Origin: Archaeoglobus profundus DSM 5631
GTDB lineage: Archaea; Halobacteriota; Archaeoglobi; Archaeoglobales; Archaeoglobaceae
Length of the DNA stretch: 64,000 nt
Assembly (NCBI RefSeq): GCF_000025285.1
Contig: NC_013741.1
Span: 248,001 to 312,000, forward strand
Direction: 5' to 3'
Below are positions 5,585 to 17,353 of the stretch, in pieces. The stretch's first letter is position 1. Each line of letters starts with the position of its first letter. Both the position numbers and the translations under genes were made by a program. The notes beneath the pieces are model-generated. The model was not told the DNA's origin and did not search any database. It was given only the letters and a program-made list of their open reading frames with translations.

Positions 5585-6514
5585 CTATAAACGTTTTGCG
5601 TAGCGCTTCATAACGTAGATGAAGAACGGCCCACCGCACAGCATTGTTATTATTCCAACAGGGACATTCAAAATCCTAGCTAAAGCGTCAGTCCAAGCGA
5701 GAAATGTAGCACCTATTAAAGCTGAGGCTGGAATAAGGAATCTGTTGTCTTCTCCAACAAATCCTCTTGCGATGTGAGGGATCATCAAACCAACGAAACC
5801 GATTATTCCTACGAATGCAACTGTTGTAGATGTTGCGAGAGTTGCCAAAGCTATTAAAATCTTCAAAACTCTTTTGACATCAATTCCCAAGTAGAAAGCT
5901 TGCTCTTCTCCCAAAAGGAGCGCGTTCAGGTGCTTCGAGAACATGAAGGAACAGAAGCATGGTATGATAGCAAGAGATGCAACTCTTACATCGCACCACT
6001 CCACATTTCCCAAATATCCTACAAGCCAGCCCAGAATCATATGTGCATTGGTTTTAACTAGTATCAACCACTCTAAAGCATAAAGGAAGAAATTCACAGC
6101 GATTCCAGCCAAGAGCAATGATTCTGTAGTGAAAAAACCTCTTATCCTAGCTAAGTTGTAAACCAATGCGACTGTTAGAGTTGCCGATACGAATGCTAGA
6201 GCTGGTGTGAGGTAAAATAACCCCAAAACGAATCCCAATAAAGCACCCAATCCAGCTCCTGTTGAAACTCCCAGAATGTAAGGCTCGGCTAACGGATTTT
6301 TAAATATGCACTGCATGACAACTCCAGCAACAGCCAGAGAAGAACCAACTACCAAACCCATCAAAACCCTCGGAATCCTGATGTTCACGAATATCCAGCT
6401 GTCTATATTCTTCTCGAACGCAACGACTGGGCTATAAACTACACTACCGATGCACGGGGCAATCAAAGCCGTGAAAATTGTCAAAAATGCTAAGAAAATT
6501 AGCTTGCGTAGCAT
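5585..6514 (-). CDS. btuC: BtuC/FecCD-type ABC transporter permease
   Basis: A 309-residue polytopic membrane protein of the FecCD/BtuC family, which transports vitamin B12, haem or ferric siderophores. Conserved family segments are RIPRVLMGLVVGSSLAVAG near residue 48, NPLAEPYILGVSTGAGLGA near 73, and GIIGFVGLMIPHIAR near 228, the region contacting the ATPase. The start overlaps the end of btuF by 16 bp. Its setting among corrinoid genes favours corrinoid import. No ATPase subunit (BtuD) lies next to it, so that part must be encoded elsewhere. Confidence 0.9.
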   Translation of the reverse strand: MLRKLIFLAFLTIFTALIAPCIGSVVYSPVVAFEKNIDSWIFVNIRIPRVLMGLVVGSSLAVAGVVMQCIFKNPLAEPYILGVSTGAGLGALLGFVLGLFYLTPALAFVSATLTVALVYNLARIRGFFTTESLLLAGIAVNFFLYALEWLILVKTNAHMILGWLVGYLGNVEWCDVRVASLAIIPCFCSFMFSKHLNALLLGEEQAFYLGIDVKRVLKILIALATLATSTTVAFVGIIGFVGLMIPHIARGFVGEDNRFLIPASALIGATFLAWTDALARILNVPVGIITMLCGGPFFIYVMKRYAKRL

Positions 6515-7473
6515 AGTCTCACTTTCTCGTAAGCCACATCAACGATCTTCGATAAATTTTCGATAGCGTAGACAATCCTGTATGAAGGTCTGCAGATGAT
6601 ATTGGCATCTATCACGTAAACGTTTCCGCACCTCACAGCTTTCAGCTTCTTGAGGTAGTTATTGTTCATTACCCAATCGTAGAGGATGTTCTCTCCTTTT
6701 GAATCCATCCCGTTACCGCTGTTCACGATTATTATATCGGGATTCATCCTGATCAGGTCTTCCAAGCTGACTACAACCCATCCGCTCTCGTTAACAACAT
6801 TGACTCCGCCAGCAATCTTTATAACATCGTCAACGAAAGTACCTCTCCCACTTACCCAGATCGGGTCATTCCAGACTATGTGGAGTATCTTAGGCTTCCA
6901 TGGGTGCTTTTTAGCCTTAACCTTGGCTATTTCATCCTTCATCCACTCGACGAGCTTCGTTGCATTTTCTTCAACACCGCAAACTTTACCCAAAAGCTCC
7001 GCATCTCTCATAACGTCCGTCACGTTCTTCGGATTTAAGGCAACAACAGTTATTCCAAAATCCTTCAAGGCTTTTATTACCCCGAAACCGTTTCCGTAGC
7101 TTGCAACTACCAAGTCGGGCTTCAACCTAACAACCTTTTCAACATCCACGGTTGAATAACCTCCCACCGAAACTATCTTGCCCTCCTTTTTGAGCTTCAA
7201 AATCTCTGGCGGGTAGTCACAGTAGTCTGTAACCCCAACAACCCTATCTCTTAAGCCTAAAGCAAAGAGAATTTCGGTGTTCGAAGGTGCCAAAGATACT
7301 ATGCGTTTCGGATACTTTTTTACAGCAACGACGTAACCGAAATCGTCTTTAACAATCACATACGTGGTATTCTCTTTAATTAGGAAGCCCTCAGTTGAGT
7401 GATTGGTTGAATGGGATGAACACCCTAGCAAAATTACAGCTAAAACCAACGTTATCAACAGTCTTAAATTCAT
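6499..7473 (-). CDS. btuF: corrinoid/metal-chelate ABC substrate-binding lipoprotein BtuF-like
   Basis: A class III substrate-binding protein. The ATG at 7473 gives a lipoprotein signal peptide ending VILLGCSS, so the mature protein would start at the Cys. The motifs KRIVSLAPSNTEILFALG, VVGVTDYCDYPPE and KPDLVVASYG are typical of BtuF and related proteins. It likely captures corrinoid outside the membrane and hands it to BtuC. A more upstream in-frame start would collide with the divergent gene and place extra residues before the signal peptide. Its promoter carries the motif shared with other corrinoid genes in this window. Confidence 0.88.
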   Translation of the reverse strand: MNLRLLITLVLAVILLGCSSHSTNHSTEGFLIKENTTYVIVKDDFGYVVAVKKYPKRIVSLAPSNTEILFALGLRDRVVGVTDYCDYPPEILKLKKEGKIVSVGGYSTVDVEKVVRLKPDLVVASYGNGFGVIKALKDFGITVVALNPKNVTDVMRDAELLGKVCGVEENATKLVEWMKDEIAKVKAKKHPWKPKILHIVWNDPIWVSGRGTFVDDVIKIAGGVNVVNESGWVVVSLEDLIRMNPDIIIVNSGNGMDSKGENILYDWVMNNNYLKKLKAVRCGNVYVIDANIICRPSYRIVYAIENLSKIVDVAYEKVRLCYAS

Positions 7474-7495
7474 AAAATTTGAAATCGTGTCAAAC

Positions 7496-7509
7496 TTATT
7501 TGACTTTCG
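7496..7509 (-). promoter_or_regulatory. corrinoid-gene promoter motif, btuF copy
   Basis: On the minus strand this reads CGAAAGTCAAATAA, a BRE-plus-TATA-like element about 23-36 bp before the btuF ATG. Exactly the same 14 bases lie before the secreted propeller gene, 5 kb away. It also overlaps a near-perfect inverted repeat, GTCAAA-CTTA-TTTGAC on the plus strand at 7489-7504. Confidence 0.55.
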
Positions 7510-7542
7510 AAAGGGATTTATCAATCCTCTCAAACATTACGG

Positions 7543-8516
7543 CATGAAAATCTACTACGATGACGTATTTCTTCAACACAAGCCTAATGGCTACCACCCG
7601 GAGAATCCAAACAGACTCAAGATCATCAGAAAAGCTTTGGAGGAGAGAGGGCTTTGGCAGAATGTCGTAAAGCCAAAAAAGGCAAAAGTTGAGGATTTGC
7701 TAAAGGTTCACGATGAGGAATACATCGATTTCATAAGGAAATCCTGCCAAAACGAGGATTTCATCGATTCTGACACATACGTTTGTAGAGAAAGCTGGGA
7801 TTCCGCCTTAACAGCCTTCGGCTGTGCTATTCATTGCGTGGAGGATGCTGTAGAGAATAAGGACCTGCATCTGGCTTTGGTTAGACCTCCGGGACATCAT
7901 GCTGGAAAAAAAAGGCGTAGCATTCAACGCTCCAAGCTTAGGTTTTTGTCTGTTCAACAACGTGGCTGGGGCCGTGGTCAAGGCTAAGGAGTTCTTTGAT
8001 CGAGTTCTGGTTACAGATTTCGACGTTCATCATGGAAACGGAACTCAGGAGATCTTCTGGGGTGATTTGAGTATTATTCACATCGACTTTCACGAATACG
8101 GAATTTATCCGGGAAGTGGGTATGTCGATGAAACTGACGGTAGCAAGGTGAATATAGCTCTACCGCATTACTGCAATGACGACGACTACATATACGCTTG
8201 GAACGAGGTTGTAGAGCCGATATTGGCAGATGTCAAGCCTAAGTTGGTTTTGGTCTCAGCTGGATTTGATGCCTTCAAGGATGATGGACTGGCTACAATG
8301 GAGCTAACTGAGAAGTTCTACGCATTTGTAGGCAGTAGATTGAGGGATTACAGCGTCGTAGCGGTTTTGGAAGGGGGATATTCCATCGGATTGGAGAGAG
8401 GCTTACCAGCGTTCGTTGAAGGCTACGTAGAGGGTTACGATGTTGAAGGCGTAAGACCGAGTGCAAAAGTCGTTGAAATTGTCAAAAAATTGAGGGAAAT
8501 TCACGATCTGCGGTAA
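7543..8516 (+). pseudogene. histone deacetylase / acetylpolyamine amidohydrolase family gene with a +1 frameshift
   Basis: Two overlapping frames together make one class II-like deacetylase. The first frame runs from the ATG at 7543 through RPPGHHAG, then leaves the family after an 8-base A run at 7906-7913. Seven As would keep the frame and continue into KKGVAFNAPSLGFCLFNN. The second frame carries DFDVHHGNGT and GFDAFKDD (zinc ligands) and LEGGYSI (catalytic Tyr). All active-site residues survive, so this is a recent frameshift, a sequencing error, or a gene rescued by slippage on the A run. The enzyme would remove acetyl groups from protein lysine or polyamines. The 3' end overlaps the convergent gene by 16 bp. 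Confidence 0.75.
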
Positions 8517-10780
8517 AACATCACAAATAGCAACGCCAGAATTCCAAGAATAGCTTCGAATCCGTAAACCTTTTTCGTTGTCGCTGTTACCTTAGGTGGG
8601 TTAGTTGTCGCAATTGTTGTTGTGGATGCTACCGTTTTGGTGATCGTCGTGGGTGTTGGTGTTATAGTAGTATATGTAACATATGTAACTTCCGTTGTAA
8701 CTGCAACAGTTCGATTCGCAGTAACTTGGGTAGTTCTATTTAACAATATCTTCACGGGATGCGGTTTACCGAGTAGCGCCATTACGGAATCCGCTGTAAC
8801 CTTTATCGGAATCGATGTCACGTATTTTGTATATTTGAAGTGTCCATCCTCAGCTTGCAAACTCAGGAGGTGTTCTACAACGCTTTTACTCGTTTTCCAA
8901 TTCGTAGGATTTACGCATGCAGAAACCAGAGCCTGAATTGTCCAAGCATCGCTGTCTGCGTTGCTTGAAGAGTTTCCGAAGTATCTCATCCCTCCATCTT
9001 CGCACTGCCCCTTTTTCAAGTAGTTAAGGGCTTTCTTGATGACTGGGTCATCTCTGCTAACACCACTGGCTATCAAGGCCTGTATTGCACTTGCAGTATC
9101 ATCAAAATCGCTTTCGGCATTTACAGCCCATGCAAATCCACCGTCTGGATTTTGATGTGCTTTAAGCCACTCAACTGACTTTGAAACGTTCTCTCCACAG
9201 GCTTTTAAAGCCAATATGCCCCAGATTGTTGTGTAGATATAATCACCTATCTGCCCATCCTCTTTAACCCTCTCCTTAAGCTTCTCGACAAAGTTTATTC
9301 CGTTAAAGTTGTAGGGATTCTGATTTAAGGCTATTAAAGCTAAGATAGTTCTTGCGAAGTCGGATGTTCCCATTCTCTCAATAACGCTCTCGTTCAAATT
9401 AGCTTTGAAGTAGTCCAAAGGACTCTTACCGTTCTTGATCCAATCGCACGGGTTCTCATTAGCACTCGCAATCGCCATGACAACCCAAGATGTATTTGAT
9501 AAGCTTCCCCATCCCCCATCTGGCCTCTGCTGACTTTTAAGCCAGTTTAAGGCTTTAACTATCCTTTCATCGCTAGAATTTAGTGGGAAGCTTTCCCATT
9601 TAGCAACTATGGCAAATATGCTGAAGCTCGTCAAGTTTGCTGTGAACGTGTAGTATGTCTCGTTTTCGGTGTAGTTCGTCGGGATAAACTTCCACTTGCC
9701 TTCGTATTCCGCAATACAGACGTCTTCAGGCTTTGCGTCTAGCTTGGTCAGTTTTTCTTTGGGTATCACGAAGCTAATGGTTACATTTGTCGATCTGTTC
9801 AACTCCAAGTCGAAGCAATCCAGCGGTGTTGCGTAAATTTCGTTGAACTCCAATCCCTTTGGCTCATACTTAGAGATCTTTAGCAGAACTGCTTTGGCAC
9901 TTCTGACCGAAACTTTTAGTGGAATCTTTGTAACGTTTACCTCTACGGTTACGTTTCCCACGACGGTGCATGTGATTGAGTTGTTAGTTCTGGCCACACT
10001 CATCTTTGAAGGTATGGTTGGTGTCGGTGTAGGGGTGGTGGATACGCTACTGCTACCCGTTTCTTCACTTGGCAAGCTCCAAGGCATCGCTGGATTTATG
10101 CTTACATCGAACGACCAATCGTCATAAGTTTTAATCGTTATTCTATACGGAGAGCTTTCGGGCGCTTCGCTCATGCTTCTTGAGAAATACCAGACAACGG
10201 TGTCACCAGCGTTTAGGTTGTACTGTTCGGATGAAACCATCGGTGTCTCTCCATTCACCTGATATACCCATCCAGAAGTCTCTCCCAAGGCTCTCGTGCA
10301 AATCCCACCAATGCAATCTACAAACAACCCGTAGCTCCACTTCTTGATCTTAACACTAAAACCCCTCTCCTGCGAAGCCTTTATCAAAACTCCCAAAGCT
10401 GTCCTCCAATTGATCGTTGCAGAACCCCCATCTTCAAGAGTAATTGTCGTGGTTCCTGAAGGCAAGTAGTATCGTCCGATCCATCCGCTACTTCCCATAC
10501 TGGATGTTGCAGGTTGTCGAATCTCTATTACTTTAGAAGCCCTTTCACATCCAGCGATTGCCTCTATTGTAAGCATTCCCGCAACTTGTGGGGTGAAGTT
10601 CGTCGATGTGTTTGCGTATATCGGAGTTCCATTGTTCATCCTTAGAATTATCAAAGCGGGTTTATCCGTGGAAATCGTGAGCTTATGCCCGACGATGAAA
10701 TCTCCTTGAACGTTTATCGTTAAAGCTTGAGCGGTCTGAACGGTTAAAATTACGAACAAGACCAAGATAACTTTCTTCAT
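8501..10780 (-). CDS. secreted, C-terminally anchored DUF4430 plus alpha/alpha-barrel (transcobalamin-like) protein
   Basis: A 759-residue surface protein. The ATG at 10780 overlaps the upstream stop (ATGA) and gives a signal peptide (MKKVILVLFVILTVQTAQA). Domains in order: a beta domain (20-95); DUF4430 (about 112-200; TALGVLIKAS, GWVYQVNGE, GDTVVWYF); a Thr/Pro linker; a PGF-pre-PGF-like domain (270-395, ending SFSIFAIVAKWE); squalene-cyclase/prenyltransferase-type alpha/alpha repeats (about 404-672; QRPDGGWG, QNPDGGFAWA, CEDGGMRYF); a Thr-rich stalk (680-736); and a C-terminal YGFEAILGILALLFVMFYRRS-like anchor resembling PGF-CTERM signals. Intrinsic factor and transcobalamin pair the same alpha/alpha barrel with a DUF4430-like domain. 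With corrinoid transport and salvage genes on both sides, I infer corrinoid binding at the surface. Confidence 0.85.
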   Translation of the reverse strand: MKKVILVLFVILTVQTAQALTINVQGDFIVGHKLTISTDKPALIILRMNNGTPIYANTSTNFTPQVAGMLTIEAIAGCERASKVIEIRQPATSSMGSSGWIGRYYLPSGTTTITLEDGGSATINWRTALGVLIKASQERGFSVKIKKWSYGLFVDCIGGICTRALGETSGWVYQVNGETPMVSSEQYNLNAGDTVVWYFSRSMSEAPESSPYRITIKTYDDWSFDVSINPAMPWSLPSEETGSSSVSTTPTPTPTIPSKMSVARTNNSITCTVVGNVTVEVNVTKIPLKVSVRSAKAVLLKISKYEPKGLEFNEIYATPLDCFDLELNRSTNVTISFVIPKEKLTKLDAKPEDVCIAEYEGKWKFIPTNYTENETYYTFTANLTSFSIFAIVAKWESFPLNSSDERIVKALNWLKSQQRPDGGWGSLSNTSWVVMAIASANENPCDWIKNGKSPLDYFKANLNESVIERMGTSDFARTILALIALNQNPYNFNGINFVEKLKERVKEDGQIGDYIYTTIWGILALKACGENVSKSVEWLKAHQNPDGGFAWAVNAESDFDDTASAIQALIASGVSRDDPVIKKALNYLKKGQCEDGGMRYFGNSSSNADSDAWTIQALVSACVNPTNWKTSKSVVEHLLSLQAEDGHFKYTKYVTSIPIKVTADSVMALLGKPHPVKILLNRTTQVTANRTVAVTTEVTYVTYTTITPTPTTITKTVASTTTIATTNPPKVTATTKKVYGFEAILGILALLFVMFYRRS

Positions 10781-12666
10781 GATGTCACCTCGCAGTTCAC
10801 ACTTCCGAACCAGTCTATAAGGTTGTTCGGATATTCGTTCAACTTGTAAACTCCCGCAAACAGTTTGTACGTTCCGATGGTATTTCTCTGAGAAACGTGA
10901 ATGAGCACTGGAACTCTCAGGCTTTGGCATTCACTCAGATAAACCGTCGAAATTCCCGCTACATAATCTCCTTTATCGTTTAAACCGCTTACAACAACAA
11001 CGTACCATCCAGATTTAGCGGAACTAACGTTTACCCATGCTGTAGCGTTTCCTCCCAATCTCGCCGAATTTACTGTCAGGTTTGAGATACCGACTGGTTT
11101 TACGTGAGTTGTTATGTTCAGCAAAACCGTACAGTTGCTCAAACTCGTTCCGTCCCCGTAGCAGTAGTATACCGTTTCGTTATCACTTATAGTGTACAGG
11201 TTGGCACCTACAGACAAAAGAGATGTTTCGTTCCAGATCGACCAGTAAATCCACTTACCATTCACGTTTTGAGTTCCTAAACCCATTATGGAGCTTATGA
11301 AGAACGAACCGTATTTATCGTACCAGCTGTCGTCGAGTGTAACGTTGAAGTAGATTTCAGCCGAATTCATTGTATAATTTGAAGCCTTTAACAGAGCCCC
11401 TAAGGCTGTGTTCTCTCTAACTTCGTATTCCCTTCCATTAACGTTCAGCGATACGTTTACGGGTGTAAGGTTTACGTCAAAATCGATTTCGCCAGAACTG
11501 TTGAAACAGTAAACGTATCCACTATCTGCACCTATGTAAAGCCTGTTGTTCGATATGAAGGGTGAGGACATTATATTCCACCAAGTGTTTTGAGGGGGTA
11601 TGAGTCTGTAATGCCAAATCTCGTAACCCACCATTGCATCCACAGCGTACAACGTTCCCTCACCCGTGTTGGTTGCAAAGTAAACGACTCTGTTTGATAC
11701 TGCAGGGGAAGAATCTATCTTACCGTTTGCCTCAAACGTCCAGAGAACGCTCAAATTTCCCCTCGAATCAAAAGCAAAGCAGTACAACTTACCATCCCTC
11801 GAACCGATGTATATCCTATCGTAAGCTACTGCTGGACTCGATATCGTCCCGTTGAACGGATACCTATCCTTCAGCGTTCCGTTCAAGTAGAAAGCGTATA
11901 GATAATTCTTAGTTGCAAAGATAAGTATAGTCTCTCCGTTTATACTCGCTACGGTTGGAGTATCGACTATCTGCGAGTCAACGCTTCTATTCCAAACTTC
12001 CGTGAGGTTCGTGTAAACGCAGTAAATTCTGTCACCGCTTGAGTTCCCAGCAAAGAAAATCTTTCCGTCGTAGGCTGTTGGAGATGTGTATGGGTTGATT
12101 AAACCGCCAGTGGTGAAACAGTCTACCACATTTCCATCTAAATCCAACTTCCAAAGAGTTCCGTTTGAATGAGTTAGAACGTAGATGTAACCGTTATAAA
12201 CGATTGGTGACGATGCAATACCGTAGTAAGATGGATGGTCGTCGAGTTTCACGCTTTTAACGCTCCTCGTGGTTAGGTTAATTATGTAGAGGTAACCATA
12301 GTAATTCCACCCGCTTCCGCTGTAAACCATACCGCCCACTATCACCTTATCACCGTAAACGAACGGGGTTGATGCACCGTAGATTGTTGAATTGTTCCAG
12401 AGTATTTGGCCAGTATCTGCATCCAATACGTAAAACCCGGGTTGCCAACTCCCCCATCCGTACCAGTTCGTTACGAAAACTTTCCCGTTAGCAACTACGG
12501 GTGATGAACCTATCAATCCACTTAAATACGTCCTCCACTCAAGCTTCGGAATTATGTTAGCGTTTGAAGTGAAGTTTCCGGTATGTTGAACATCCCCTTG
12601 AAGTGTGTATGCGTTTACTGGCACTGCTATCAGCATCAGGATTGCAACGCACACCAACAACCTCAT
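10777..12666 (-). CDS. secreted PQQ-like beta-propeller plus DUF4430 protein
   Basis: A 629-residue exported protein with a signal peptide (MRLLVCVAILMLIAVPVNA). Residues 35-395 are PQQ-like propeller repeats (for example SSPVVANGKVFV, ASSPIVYNGYIYV, SSPAVSNRVVYF). Residues 405-505 are a DUF4430 domain (ENTALGALLKAS, GKWIYWSIWN, ETVYYCYGDG), and 515-628 a beta-sandwich with no anchor. The ATG at 12666 is one codon after a TTG. It precedes the anchored DUF4430 gene with a 4-bp ATGA overlap, so the two are translationally coupled and may form a complex. Bacteroides BtuG, a surface propeller, binds cobalamin tightly; a similar role here is inference. Confidence 0.85.
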   Translation of the reverse strand: MRLLVCVAILMLIAVPVNAYTLQGDVQHTGNFTSNANIIPKLEWRTYLSGLIGSSPVVANGKVFVTNWYGWGSWQPGFYVLDADTGQILWNNSTIYGASTPFVYGDKVIVGGMVYSGSGWNYYGYLYIINLTTRSVKSVKLDDHPSYYGIASSPIVYNGYIYVLTHSNGTLWKLDLDGNVVDCFTTGGLINPYTSPTAYDGKIFFAGNSSGDRIYCVYTNLTEVWNRSVDSQIVDTPTVASINGETILIFATKNYLYAFYLNGTLKDRYPFNGTISSPAVAYDRIYIGSRDGKLYCFAFDSRGNLSVLWTFEANGKIDSSPAVSNRVVYFATNTGEGTLYAVDAMVGYEIWHYRLIPPQNTWWNIMSSPFISNNRLYIGADSGYVYCFNSSGEIDFDVNLTPVNVSLNVNGREYEVRENTALGALLKASNYTMNSAEIYFNVTLDDSWYDKYGSFFISSIMGLGTQNVNGKWIYWSIWNETSLLSVGANLYTISDNETVYYCYGDGTSLSNCTVLLNITTHVKPVGISNLTVNSARLGGNATAWVNVSSAKSGWYVVVVSGLNDKGDYVAGISTVYLSECQSLRVPVLIHVSQRNTIGTYKLFAGVYKLNEYPNNLIDWFGSVNCEVTS

Positions 12667-12692
12667 CAATTTTACTTGACTCTAGATCAGAT

Positions 12693-12710: not shown

Positions 12711-13577
12711 TCAAGCATGATTAACTAAGATAAACTCTAACATAAAAACGAGCGAGAGGAAAATTGCAACAATTAAACAGTAGACTTTTAAAGCCTTTTT
12801 AACATCTTCAAGCCTCGGATTTCGACCTTCAAACCTGTAAACTCCCTCCTTTTCAATCCAAACACTCAAGACGGCACTCATGCAGGCTATAGGCTTATCG
12901 CTGTTTATCTTGAACTTGGCAAGCCTGCAGTACTGCCAGACCCTCTTGGGTTTGAGCGGTAAGAATAATAAAACGGTGATTCTGGCTGGAATGAAATTTA
13001 AGATGTCGTCGAGTCTTGCCGAGAACTTTCCGAAGTACTCGTATTTTTCGTTTCTATAGCCGATCATAGCATCCAACGTGTTTATAGCCCTGTAAATCAA
13101 AGCACCGCTCAGTCCAAATAGCATGTAGTAAAAGATTGGAGATATTACGCTATCAACTATGTTCTCCGCCAAGCTTTCGATGGATGCGGAGATTAAATGG
13201 TGTCTGTCGAGCTTTGAAACGTCTCTACTGACTATCAGACTAACCGCTCTACGCATTTCTTCCACATCTTCACAAATAGTAGCCTTAACGTGCTGATAGA
13301 GGCTTTTTATTGCAAATGAGGATTTCAGCAGGTAAACCTCAGCTATGAGGTTGAAGGGAAAGGGCAGAAATCTCGGTATGAAGGAGAGGACTAATGCAAA
13401 GAATAAAACGACAGTTGTGCAGACTATCCCAGCTAAGAAGTCCGTTAGGGGATTTCGTCTTTTGTAAGCTCTGTCGATCTTGGCTGTAATCTTCCCGAAC
13501 CACACGACTGGATGCACTCTGTTCGGGGGTTCTCCGAACAACAAATCGAAAGCTATCGCAAGTACCAGCTCAATCAT
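12711..13577 (-). CDS. cbiB: adenosylcobinamide-phosphate synthase CbiB
   Basis: CbiB attaches aminopropanol (or its phosphate) to adenosylcobyric acid to make adenosylcobinamide phosphate. It is an integral membrane enzyme of 288 residues. Family motifs are [16 protein letters not shown] near residue 14, [16 protein letters not shown] near 130, and [18 protein letters not shown] near 163. In archaeal salvage it re-uses the cobyric acid released by CbiZ, which is encoded nearby. The gene is divergent from cobS with a 40-46 bp gap between start codons. Confidence 0.95.
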
Positions 13578-13603: not shown

Positions 13604-13623
13604 ATATCAAAGCATGGATGTTC

Positions 13624-14325
13624 ATGGATTTAATCTCTTTCTTCACAAGAATACCAGCTGAGGGAAAGCTCGAAAGAGTTGCAAAACAGCTTTGGGCTTT
13701 ACCTCTTTTGGCCTTGCTCACTTCAGCTCTGCCGATGGCTTTGCTGTTGCTGAAAATACCGATAAGGGAAATTCTTGCTTTGATAGCCTTGTACGCTACG
13801 ATAGGTTTAATCCATTTAGACGGCTTAGCGGATTTCAGCGATGGGTTGATGGCTAAGGGAGATGTTAAGGTGAAGTTTAGGGCTATGAAGGATGTGAACG
13901 TTGGAATTGCGGGTATCTTTGCGGTAATTGTTGTCATCTTGTTGCAGGTCGGAGCATTACGATTTGCCCCCTTTTATGCCATATTTTTGGCTGAGTTGAA
14001 CTCCAAGTTCTCGATACTCTTATCCTTATCTGTAAAAAAGCCCTTAGGTGAAGGTTTGGCGAAGTTCTTCATGGATAGATTAGATAGAAGGCAGTTCTTT
14101 GTTGGTTTTGGAATTTACATTGCCTTGATAGTGGCAGTAGCTTTTTACGACAGAATTGCTTTGATCTCAGCTCTATCTCTAATCGTAGGTCTGCTCACGA
14201 TAAAGATTGCTTTGGATAACTTCAAAGGCTTGAACGGTGATTGTGTAGGTGCAGTTGCGGAGATAACGAGAACATCAAGCTTAGTGCTGTGTGCTATTTT
14301 GGATAATCCATCGATGATCATTTAA
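13624..14325 (+). CDS. cobS: adenosylcobinamide-GDP ribazoletransferase (cobalamin synthase) CobS
   Basis: CobS joins adenosylcobinamide-GDP with alpha-ribazole (phosphate), the last step of nucleotide-loop assembly. It is a polytopic membrane enzyme of about 233 residues. The N-terminal SFFTRIPAEG and the motif GLIHLDGLADFSDGLMA near residue 60 are the family's metal-binding signature, followed by MKDVNVGIAG. ATG 13624 is preferred to the ATG at 13618 because it fits the promoter spacing better. The 3' end overlaps the convergent HTH gene by 8 bp. Confidence 0.94.
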   Translation: MDLISFFTRIPAEGKLERVAKQLWALPLLALLTSALPMALLLLKIPIREILALIALYATIGLIHLDGLADFSDGLMAKGDVKVKFRAMKDVNVGIAGIFAVIVVILLQVGALRFAPFYAIFLAELNSKFSILLSLSVKKPLGEGLAKFFMDRLDRRQFFVGFGIYIALIVAVAFYDRIALISALSLIVGLLTIKIALDNFKGLNGDCVGAVAEITRTSSLVLCAILDNPSMII

Positions 14326-14694: not shown

Positions 14695-14949
14695 ATGGAC
14701 TTAACAGAACTCGATAAAGCTATTATTTATACGATTTATCGAAGAGGTAACAGAAGTAAGAAAGCTCATTTTCCAATTGAAGCAATCCGTCGTGGGTTTC
14801 CAACCCATCTTCACGGCTTAATAAAACGACGTGTAAAATATCTTGTTTCTAAAGGTTTTCTCTACGTAAAACCTCATCCAAGTGGTCATAGTTACGGTCT
14901 AACTGATCTTGGATGGAAAACCGCTATGAAGTTGGAAGAAGAGCTATAA
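14695..14949 (+). CDS. small HTH-like protein upstream of cobY
   Basis: An 84-residue basic protein starting MDLTELDKAIIYTIYRRGNR, with a winged-helix look: LHGLIKRRVKYLVSKGFLYVKPHPSGHSYGLTDLGWKTAMKL has a recognition-helix-like segment and a beta wing. An A/T-rich TATA-like stretch (14659-14674) lies about 26 bp before the ATG, so the mRNA is probably leaderless. It precedes cobY by 17 bp, and the two are likely co-transcribed. It is probably a transcription factor of unknown target. Confidence 0.7.
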   Translation: MDLTELDKAIIYTIYRRGNRSKKAHFPIEAIRRGFPTHLHGLIKRRVKYLVSKGFLYVKPHPSGHSYGLTDLGWKTAMKLEEEL

Positions 14950-14966
14950 AAAACATAATTGGAGAT

Positions 14967-15524
14967 ATGTTAATCGTAGTAATGGCTGGTGGAAAGAGTT
15001 CGAGGATGGGATTCGAAAAGCCCTTAGCTTTAGTTAGGGGTAAGCCCATGCTTCTGTGGGTCTATGATAGAGCGGTTAAAGCTGGAGATGCTGTTGTTGC
15101 TGTCAGTAGGAACACTCCGAGAACAGCCGAATTTTGTAAGGAGCGAGGAATCGAAACGATAGAAACGTCTGGTAAAGGCTATGTTGAGGATATTCGTTTT
15201 ATTCTAAAGGAATTCGGTGAGTTTGTGAGTGTAGCTTGCGACATTCCATTCGTAAGGGCTGAAGACATAAGAGAAATTGTTGAAAATTTCGAAGGGATGA
15301 GCTTAACAGGTGTTTTGAGTCCGAAAATCGTTCCAGACTTCATCGATCTCAAAAAATTGCCTATCTATGAGGGATGGGTTATCGTTGGACTTAATGCGGT
15401 TGGCTGGGAGGGTGAGATGTTTTTAGAGTTGAAAAACCCGCTCTTAGCTCTAAACGTGAACACACCCGAAGATTTGGCTTTAGCCAATACAATCGCGAAT
15501 AAGTTAGATACTTCTTGGGCTTAA
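14967..15524 (+). CDS. cobY: GTP:adenosylcobinamide-phosphate guanylyltransferase CobY
   Basis: CobY transfers GMP to adenosylcobinamide phosphate, the archaeal replacement for bacterial CobU. The 185-residue protein has a nucleotidyltransferase fold. The N-terminal MLIVVMAGGKSSRMGFEKPL is the NTP-binding loop, VSVACDIPFV the metal/base site, and VGLNAVGW and ALNVNTPEDLALA the family C-terminus. The ATG at 14967 sits just behind GGAG and gives the usual short N-terminus. It belongs to the salvage route with cbiZ, cbiB, cobT and cobS around it. Confidence 0.92.
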   Translation: MLIVVMAGGKSSRMGFEKPLALVRGKPMLLWVYDRAVKAGDAVVAVSRNTPRTAEFCKERGIETIETSGKGYVEDIRFILKEFGEFVSVACDIPFVRAEDIREIVENFEGMSLTGVLSPKIVPDFIDLKKLPIYEGWVIVGLNAVGWEGEMFLELKNPLLALNVNTPEDLALANTIANKLDTSWA

Positions 15525-15832
15525 GTTGTTTAAGTGAAAAGGAGTTAGAGTTCGTCTGTGAGTTCTGCGGTAAGGATATAGAAGACGGTTTGAGATTTTA
15601 CAATTCTAACGTAGTCAAGATTTTACCAAACGAGGTTGTTAAGAGACTTGAAGTCGTGAAAAAATTCGATTTCGAGATTGATGATACCCATAAAGAGGTT
15701 ACCGATGATATAATACATTCATTAGACAGGCTCGATGAAGAGAAAATAGTCAGGGTTCATCAGAAGGTTTTTAGGCTGAACCACCTTCTCACACCCTCCT
15801 CTAAAGCAGTTCTCACCGCTCTACCAATGTAA
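15515..15832 (+). CDS. small CxxC protein downstream of cobY, function unknown
   Basis: A possible 105-residue protein with a TTG start overlapping the cobY stop by 10 bp. It contains CEFCGKDIEDG, a single zinc-knuckle-like pair, then charged helical sequence (DDTHKEVTDDIIHSLDRLDEEK). The last 73 bp run antisense to the 3' end of cbiZ, unusually long for convergent genes here. I do not recognise the family. No ATG is available, so the start is uncertain. Its position hints at a link to corrinoid metabolism. Confidence 0.5.
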   Translation: MGLSCLSEKELEFVCEFCGKDIEDGLRFYNSNVVKILPNEVVKRLEVVKKFDFEIDDTHKEVTDDIIHSLDRLDEEKIVRVHQKVFRLNHLLTPSSKAVLTALPM

Positions 15833-16371
15833 AAACCGAGTTTAGTGGCAGTCCCAGCCCATTCCTCCTCACCTTCAAATCCGAACACTGCAATGCAATC
15901 ACTCGTAGTCCCAGTTGCGTTTACGAGCTTTAATAGTGTGTAAGTCTTTGCCTCTATCGCTGTCATTACTGCGTTCACTAAACAACCGATAGTAACTCCC
16001 CTGTCTATCAAAATCACCATGTTCACCGTCCCCCAGCCGTTCTCGTTGCTTTCTCCAACGATTGCCTTGTTTTTGAGTCCAACCGTTACAAAAACCTCGA
16101 CATCTCCGATCTTTGTATGTGTAAGCGTTTTCTTGATGAGAGTTGCGGTCATGAACCCTACGAAATCTTTCAACCCGTATTCATCCTCAAATCTCCTGCA
16201 ATCCGTTTTGTAATCTCCGCTGTAGTTCTCATCGACTTGCATGAAGAAAAAGCCGTTTGCTTTGCATAGCCCAGAGTTGTGGGGAGCGTTGCTGAGGCAG
16301 ACCATAGGCTCGTTCAGTTTAAAGATGAAGTGATCGTCAGTAAAGTAACCTTCGCCAAGCTTAGATTTCAT
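15760..16371 (-). CDS. cbiZ: adenosylcobinamide amidohydrolase CbiZ
   Basis: CbiZ cleaves the aminopropanol side chain from adenosylcobinamide (or pseudo-B12-type corrinoids) to give adenosylcobyric acid, letting archaea salvage incomplete or foreign corrinoids. The 203-residue protein shows the family segments [47 protein letters not shown] and [12 protein letters not shown]. It overlaps the upstream cobT gene by 11 bp, so the two form an operon. Confidence 0.92.
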
Positions 16372-17353
16372 TTGAAATCAGCTTGGCGTAGAGTTCTTCA
16401 ACCTTCTTGAATACGTCTTTACAGCTAAAACCCTTTTTCTCAGCCAAGTAAACGGCTCCACCAGCACCAACACCCTCTTTGACGAACCCTCTCTCGTAAT
16501 CCCTCAATCCATTAAACTTACTCTGAGAGAAGTCCAAATTTGCCACGTAATAGTCGATACCGATCTCTTCAGCAGTCCTTTCAAAAGTGGCAGTTCTATC
16601 TTCAACTACCCAGCGCGTTGTCGCTATTTTGAACCTTCTCAAATCTTCACCCAATGCCTTCAGGATTGCAGAAACGGCTAACATCTGAGTTCCACCAGCT
16701 AAAACAACTTTTCCTCTAAAGCCTATTGAAATTCCCAAAGTACAAGCCAACATCGGATCACCGAACTCTTTTAATGCCTGAATTGGTTTGTCGGCAAGCT
16801 CGCCAAATTTCGCATTGGCTCTCTTGAATCCCTCTTCAATCACATCTTTCTTGAGCTCCTGCGGATTGTTCGGAGATGCTGAAGACGTTTTGGCTTTGTA
16901 TCCTAAGGCCCAGAGAACTGCCTGTGCTGTAGTCGTTCCAGCTGGTGTTGATTCCCCTATCACAACCTCATTCACAACCTTCGAAAGCTCGCAACCTATG
17001 AGTTTGCCCTTCTCAACGATCTCATCAACGTTAGGTAAGGCTTGAGTCTTTCTAAAATCCCTACCGACATCATCGCTGACGTGAATGTGTGGAATTTGAG
17101 GAGCTAAAAATGTTCCAGCCCTCACAACTGTTATAGGAAATCCAGCGAGTTCGTAGCAAGCTTTCGTGATTATAGCTGGTGTGGGATGTCCTTGAGGGGT
17201 AACTGGGATTGCATCGATGATCTTAGGTCTGTCGTAAAAGATGTATTCCGCATCAGCTGGCGGTGTAAACTTCGTAAGCTCTGGATTGGCTCCAGCTATG
17301 CTGATACCCTTTATCAACGAAAGCTCCGTGTTTCCCAACACTAAAAGCATCAT
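16361..17353 (-). CDS. cobT: nicotinate mononucleotide phosphoribosyltransferase, archaeal CobT type
   Basis: A 330-residue protein of the archaeal CobT family (TIGR00303/UPF0284), which makes alpha-ribazole 5'-phosphate from nicotinate mononucleotide and the lower-ligand base. Characteristic stretches are [55 protein letters not shown] and [16 protein letters not shown]. It heads a cobT-cbiZ operon and carries the corrinoid promoter motif about 27 bp upstream. Confidence 0.9.

Follow-up and report, generated by a model that had tools for sequence, protein, structure and literature searches.

A putative surface receptor for corrinoids in Archaeoglobus profundus pairs a transcobalamin-like DUF4430 domain with an alpha/alpha toroid

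The putative receptor gene and its corrinoid neighbourhood

A 64,000-nucleotide stretch of the Archaeoglobus profundus DSM 5631 genome (contig NC_013741.1, positions 248,001 to 312,000; this whole stretch is the window, and positions below are counted within it) carries a gene for a secreted, C-terminally anchored protein of 759 aa that combines DUF4430, PGF-pre-PGF and alpha/alpha-toroid domains (8501..10780, minus strand), a putative surface receptor for corrinoids. Its ATG lies at 10780 and its stop codon at 8501-8503. The mechanical open reading frame (ORF) extends to 10930, and the start is placed at 10780 because the signal peptide begins there and because the start codon overlaps the upstream gene as ATGA. 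The pair formed by this receptor and an upstream propeller gene is flanked by btuF and btuC at one end and by cbiB, cobS, a cobY-like gene, cbiZ and cobT at the other.

All domains of the receptor are encoded on the minus strand. A signal peptide (residues 1-20, 10721..10780; sequence MKKVILVLFVILTVQTAQAL), modelled as a helix at residues 2-13, is followed by an N-terminal Ig-like beta domain recognised from AlphaFold2 strands (residues 22-88, 10517..10717). Next comes the DUF4430/SLBB domain, which is transcobalamin-like (residues 101-229, 10094..10480), is alpha/beta in the model and matches PF14478 of Pfam with 49.3 bits against a curated cut-off of 23.8; its C156 and C161 are invariant in the alignment. 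A PGF-pre-PGF domain (residues 259-394, 9599..10006), modelled as a beta domain, reaches 38.4 bits with TIGR04213 of NCBIfam (cut-off 28). The single alpha/alpha toroid (residues 400-670, 8771..9583) is supported by model helices, by Foldseek and by two Pfam families, SQHop_cyclase_C (PF13243, 63.6 bits, cut-off 26.1) and Prenyltrans (PF00432, 38.4 bits, cut-off 26.5), and contains a DFDDTA motif (residues 558-563, 9092..9109). The protein ends in a Thr-rich stalk (residues 681-740, 8561..8740) that is predicted to be disordered, with a per-residue confidence (pLDDT) < 50, and in a PGF-CTERM-like tail (8504..8566), recognised from the sequence and a model helix and made up of YGF, a transmembrane helix at 742-758 and RRS. 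This tail does not pass the Pfam PGF-CTERM family PF18204, which 7 of the 32 aligned proteins do match, and its GF is invariant across the alignment. Conservation is far above chance: the receptor recurs at 32 other loci of Archaeoglobaceae, and both its DUF4430 domain and its toroid contain invariant columns, as does the GF at the C-terminus; PF14478 is matched by 28/32 aligned proteins. The AlphaFold2 model, built from the 32-sequence alignment, has a mean pLDDT of 84.7 and a predicted template-modelling score (pTM) of 0.59, so that the relative placement of the domains is not fixed by it. An initial annotation, made from the letters of the window, had proposed that a signal peptide, DUF4430, toroid-type repeats and a Thr-rich stalk occur in one protein, and Pfam and AlphaFold2 bear this out; the order that it gave, reversed relative to the animal proteins and with a PGF-pre-PGF domain between the halves, is likewise that of the residue ranges above.

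The upstream partner (10777..12669, minus strand) consists of a PQQ/BamB-like beta-propeller (PF13360, 74.5 bits), a DUF4430 domain and a C-terminal beta domain. Its DUF4430 domain scores 20.1 bits with PF14478, under the cut-off of 23.8, and is above it in many relatives; the model has a pLDDT of 93.5, and its best fold matches are BamB-like. The TGA of the partner overlaps the ATG of the receptor, indicating that the pair is probably co-translated, and the two genes are probably co-transcribed. The propeller gene shares 81% identity with that of a different genus (G038, L039) and only 45% with that of a genome from the same genus (G016), a pattern that operon replacement or horizontal transfer may explain.

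The corrinoid genes foreseen by the initial annotation were found on both sides. The BtuF-type substrate-binding lipoprotein (6499..7533, minus strand) has an LLGC lipobox and matches PF01497 with 134.6 bits; its NCBIfam BtuF score is 107 bits, under the cut-off of 234. The BtuC-type permease (5585..6514, minus strand) matches PF01032 (FecCD) with 263.6 bits, and NCBIfam BtuC with 253 bits, under the cut-off of 461. On the other side are CbiB, the adenosylcobinamide-phosphate synthase (12711..13577, minus strand; TIGR00380, 291 bits, cut-off 165.9), CobS (13618..14325, plus strand; TIGR00317, 138 bits, cut-off 110), a CobY-like guanylyltransferase (14913..15524, plus strand; NCBIfam CobY, 73.7 bits, under the cut-off of 250), CbiZ, the adenosylcobinamide amidohydrolase (15760..16371, minus strand; PF01955, 156.7 bits), and CobT of the archaeal type (16361..17353, minus strand; TIGR00303, 323 bits, cut-off 240). 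These genes of the window make up a set for lower-ligand assembly and remodelling.

Relation to transcobalamin and to terpene cyclases

The kinship of DUF4430 with the domain found in transcobalamin and intrinsic factor, assumed in the initial annotation, is borne out by profile comparison. The best solved match of the DUF4430 profile is human haptocorrin (4kki, E 1e-5), with transcobalamin-2 (E 0.05-0.5) and intrinsic factor (E 0.9) further away, and the archaeal C-I-x-G-x-C is aligned to C-I-Q-G-L-C of haptocorrin. For the toroid, the proposed equivalence with the animal barrel holds in part. The alpha/alpha barrel fold of the intrinsic factor/transcobalamin family is present in the modelled residues 400-670, and Foldseek retrieves transcobalamin 7qbf (E 1.8e-4, prob 1.00), which ranks 50th, after terpene cyclases and prenyltransferases headed by 8pak (E 3e-7). 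The animal barrel family PF01122 has no match in the window receptor at E<=1 and matches weakly in 7/32 aligned proteins, with a best E of 0.04. Pfam matches to TED_complement and DOCK were set aside, as their coordinates lie outside the toroid; TED domains are also toroids.

The proximity to terpene cyclases raises the idea that the toroid is a class II terpene cyclase-type enzyme working at the cell surface. The top fold matches (8pak, 8paj and MstE) are indeed one-toroid class II cyclases, and D558-x-D560-D561, which is invariant, is aligned with the catalytic DVDD of drimenyl diphosphate synthase. However, the receptor is secreted and tethered, the toroid is fused to DUF4430 or BtuF in corrinoid operons, and NCBIfam models of full-length class II cyclases score far under their cut-offs (e.g., 56 vs 431 bits), all of which makes an enzymatic role highly improbable. 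The D-x-D-D-T motif is present in all DUF4430-toroid and all toroid-BtuF fusions surveyed; it could represent a retained acidic patch that may contact the amide side chains of the corrin ring.

Conserved context, fusions and fissions

DUF4430 occurs in 34/55 Archaeoglobaceae genomes, and in nearly all Archaeoglobaceae that have the receptor its gene stands between those of the propeller-DUF4430 protein and BtuF, in many cases with BtuC, BtuD and CbiZ ahead of the run. A search with the toroid profile found matches in 64/295 Halobacteriota genomes. A strong BtuF (E < 1e-30) is nearby or fused at 51/60 toroid loci and in 0/20 random 20-kb windows from 15 toroid-carrying genomes (Fisher's p 3e-12), figures that are descriptive and not an independent test, since the genomes are related. 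Homologues are thus not scattered away from corrinoid genes, which upholds the link to BtuF/BtuC drawn in the initial annotation.

Three arrangements of the same parts were found, with the propeller+DUF4430 partner usually present across them. DUF4430 and the toroid are fused and followed by BtuF in Archaeoglobaceae. Separate genes for DUF4430, toroid and BtuF occur in contigs read as those of anaerobic methanotrophic (ANME)-type archaea: L089 and L095, labelled Methanosarcinales or Methanophagales, have a DUF4430+PGF-pre-PGF gene, a toroid gene with its own C-terminal anchor, btuF and btuC, and in L093 the DUF4430 half is fused to the propeller protein. In the third, methanogen-like arrangement, DUF4430 usually lies in the adjoining gene, and the toroid is fused N-terminally to BtuF in a single protein, at 15/28 other Halobacteriota loci from 15 methanogen-like genomes (L128, L130, L133-L135, L138-L143, L146, L147, L149 and L150). 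The L128 fusion matches PF01497 (140.7 bits), PF13243 (50.9 bits) and PF00432, the L140 fusion matches the same families, and some fusions end in a PGF-CTERM-type tail. Such a series of fusions and fissions is stronger evidence than adjacency by itself that the toroid, DUF4430 and BtuF serve a single process. In a tree of archaeal toroids, bootstrap values are 100% for Archaeoglobi with ANME, 98% for the toroid-BtuF clade and 44% for the DUF4430-toroid fusions as one clade, the last too low to give the direction of the change. The possibility of an ancestral pair, raised in the initial annotation, is unsupported.

The exchange of fusion partners could also be read as the mark of a scaffold: small-ligand binding would have been lost from both DUF4430 and the toroid, and the main task of the protein would be to anchor or position BtuF and its propeller partner at the S-layer. 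The toroid does change its partner between DUF4430 and BtuF, and modules typical of surface proteins (Ig, PKD and PGF-pre-PGF) abound in these proteins. Such a role is nevertheless improbable, as both DUF4430 and the toroid, with its D-x-D-D-T, hold clusters of invariant residues beyond what a spacer would need.

Several further observations concern the loci themselves. A split operon with broken ORFs occurs in L096, a contig labelled Candidatus Nitrosotalea that is probably mis-binned. Genes of 306-312 aa and 633-634 aa that follow btuC in L039 and L040 were dismissed as unrelated, as by eye they resemble an ornithine carbamoyltransferase and an NAD synthase-like protein with an intein-like insert (L039:2857-4758 and L040:14549-16453 for the latter). 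In the window and in one genome of the same genus, receptor and btuF are separated by an opposite-strand histone-deacetylase-like gene; they adjoin in most other Archaeoglobaceae. In the window this gene is split into two plus-strand ORFs (7403-7987 and 7899-8516) that cover PF00850 profile positions 1-118 and 120-287, and the same-genus genome (L042/L088) has, at the same place, one 330-aa ORF with 79% identity, so the gene appears frameshifted, by decay or sequencing error. An Rfam scan of the window for a cobalamin riboswitch or other RNA elements gave two tRNAs only.

Predicted corrinoid need of the genome

The genome consists of two contigs with 1,563,423 bases and is rated 99.94% complete. 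Of the markers of de novo corrinoid synthesis, neither CbiD nor CbiC was found in it, and it has only 3 TP-methylases, indicating that de novo synthesis is not expected and that, as judged from gene content, A. profundus should salvage corrinoids. A corrinoid would be needed because the genome encodes B12-binding proteins that look radical-SAM-type. Two other possible reasons for this need were discarded: no match to CdhD (PF03599) was found in the genome, so that the corrinoid subunit of carbon monoxide dehydrogenase (CODH)/acetyl-CoA synthase appears to be absent, and B12-dependent ribonucleotide reductase (TIGR02504) was not found in it either. A strict link between the receptor and the loss of synthesis does not hold across 40 good Archaeoglobaceae genomes, in which DUF4430 occurs in 5/6 of those without CbiC and CbiD and in 20/29 of those with both (p 0.65), indicating that the receptor is not confined to salvagers.

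The choice of ligand is where an alternative deserves most weight, namely that the receptor binds ligand at the surface for an ABC importer whose substrate is not a corrinoid but, for instance, heme, a siderophore, a chelate of cobalt or nickel, or some other metabolite. The BtuF/BtuC family is common to heme and siderophore importers, neither protein of the window reaches its NCBIfam equivalog cut-off, and CbiC and CbiD are present in most receptor-bearing Archaeoglobaceae. B12 makers, though, commonly salvage corrinoids too, and the gene run includes CbiZ at many loci and CbiB at others, to which the window adds cobS, cobY and cobT. CbiZ and CbiB are corrinoid-specific, which argues for the transport of a corrinoid rather than of iron or heme. 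Burroughs et al. (PMC1796856) proposed that archaea scavenge a distinct metabolite, on the ground that archaea often make B12; as neither CbiC nor CbiD is present in the window genome, that argument falls for this species. On balance, a ligand other than a corrinoid is unlikely.

Known systems

The 2007 study by Burroughs et al. defined the SLBB superfamily (PMC1796856). It described bacterial fusions of SLBB with a toroid in either order, joined SLBB also to propeller and Ig domains, reported paired SLBB genes and a probable role in B12 scavenging, and named an Archaeoglobus protein with Ig-fold domains. The DUF4430+toroid pair, in both orders and with B12 scavenging, is already known for bacteria. 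The bacterial proteins that this study covers resemble the archaeal receptor in being secreted and anchored SLBB+toroid proteins with paralogous SLBB genes in the operon and with propeller fusions. They differ in that they are tied to CbiO/CbiQ-type transport and have a Gram-positive anchor, whereas the archaeal receptor is tied to BtuF/BtuC and CbiZ and has a PGF-pre-PGF domain and a PGF-CTERM-like anchor. In the open literature, so far as it was accessible, no account was found of the archaeal BtuF operon, of the split form or of the toroid-BtuF fusion, an absence that is no proof of novelty.

The animal proteins intrinsic factor, transcobalamin and haptocorrin share both fold types with the receptor, and haptocorrin shares DUF4430 sequence; they are, however, soluble carriers, whereas the receptor has a cell anchor, the reverse domain order, an extra domain between the halves, and a toroid that is nearer to terpene cyclases and has a full DXDDT motif. 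BtuG of Bacteroides, a surface-exposed seven-bladed propeller lipoprotein, captures B12 for a Btu transporter and works with the outer-membrane protein BtuB (PMC6143338). Like BtuG, the archaeal partner is a propeller, but it is PQQ/BamB-like, carries DUF4430 and has no BtuB partner. In outline the receptor system would resemble transcobalamin plus BtuG, yet the tests run place the receptor outside the animal family. With the BtuCDF importer the window shares adjoining BtuF- and BtuC-type genes; it differs in the extracellular SLBB and toroid layer, covalently fused to BtuF in methanogen-like genomes, and in having no adjacent ATPase gene.

Proposed function

The protein is probably a surface receptor for corrinoids of the B12 family that acts with its propeller-SLBB partner and feeds BtuF-BtuC. 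The DUF4430/SLBB domain and the alpha/alpha toroid would jointly hold a corrinoid outside the membrane, like the two halves of transcobalamin, while the Thr-rich stalk and PGF-CTERM-like anchor would tether the receptor and the co-encoded propeller+DUF4430 protein would act with it. Transcobalamin domains that had been separated are reported to assemble when ligand is present (PMC5599065). The corrinoid would then pass to the lipoprotein BtuF and from there to BtuC and an ABC ATPase whose gene lies elsewhere, and inside the cell CbiZ, CbiB, CobY, CobT and CobS would rebuild the organism's own cobamide.

Several points weigh against this proposal. With a pTM of 0.59, the model does not show DUF4430 and the toroid facing each other. 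In both sequence and fold, the toroid has squalene-hopene and other class II terpene cyclases, and not transcobalamin, as its closest matches, and it retains the DXDD motif of class II cyclases (D558-F-D560-D561-T562); the domain order, with DUF4430 (101-229) before the toroid (400-670), is the reverse of that in transcobalamin. Many receptor-bearing Archaeoglobaceae also have CbiC and CbiD. Distant giant toroid proteins (L137, L145, L152, L153 and L154), which are surface-type, 1132-2181 aa long and have lost D-x-D-D-T, mostly have no BtuF nearby. Finally, btuC of the window has no BtuD ATPase gene next to it, whereas many relatives do; the best ATPase candidates lie elsewhere in the genome, at C1:901514 and 850040. 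A second BtuCDF-like gene run lies at C1:900000-919900 (BtuF-like 28%, BtuC-like 32%, ATPase 46-48%), and its ATPase is a candidate partner of the window BtuC.

Corrinoid delivery to the membrane has been little studied in archaea, though many of them depend on corrinoids. Gene order, the series of fusions and fissions and the absence of synthesis markers allow the guess of 2007 to be recast as a direct proposal, that corrinoids are scavenged and handed to BtuF. In its broadest form, to which we give even chances, archaea would possess a modular extracellular B12 receptor whose SLBB and toroid parts are wired differently in each lineage: Archaeoglobi join them in one protein, ANME-type archaea keep them apart, and methanogens fuse the toroid to BtuF. 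A transcobalamin-like clamp would thus hand the corrinoid straight to an ABC transporter, with the propeller-SLBB protein as a third component. The toroid-BtuF fusions are single-chain proteins suited to binding assays and structures, and the archaeal system may offer a microbial comparison for the clamping of B12 by human intrinsic factor and transcobalamin.

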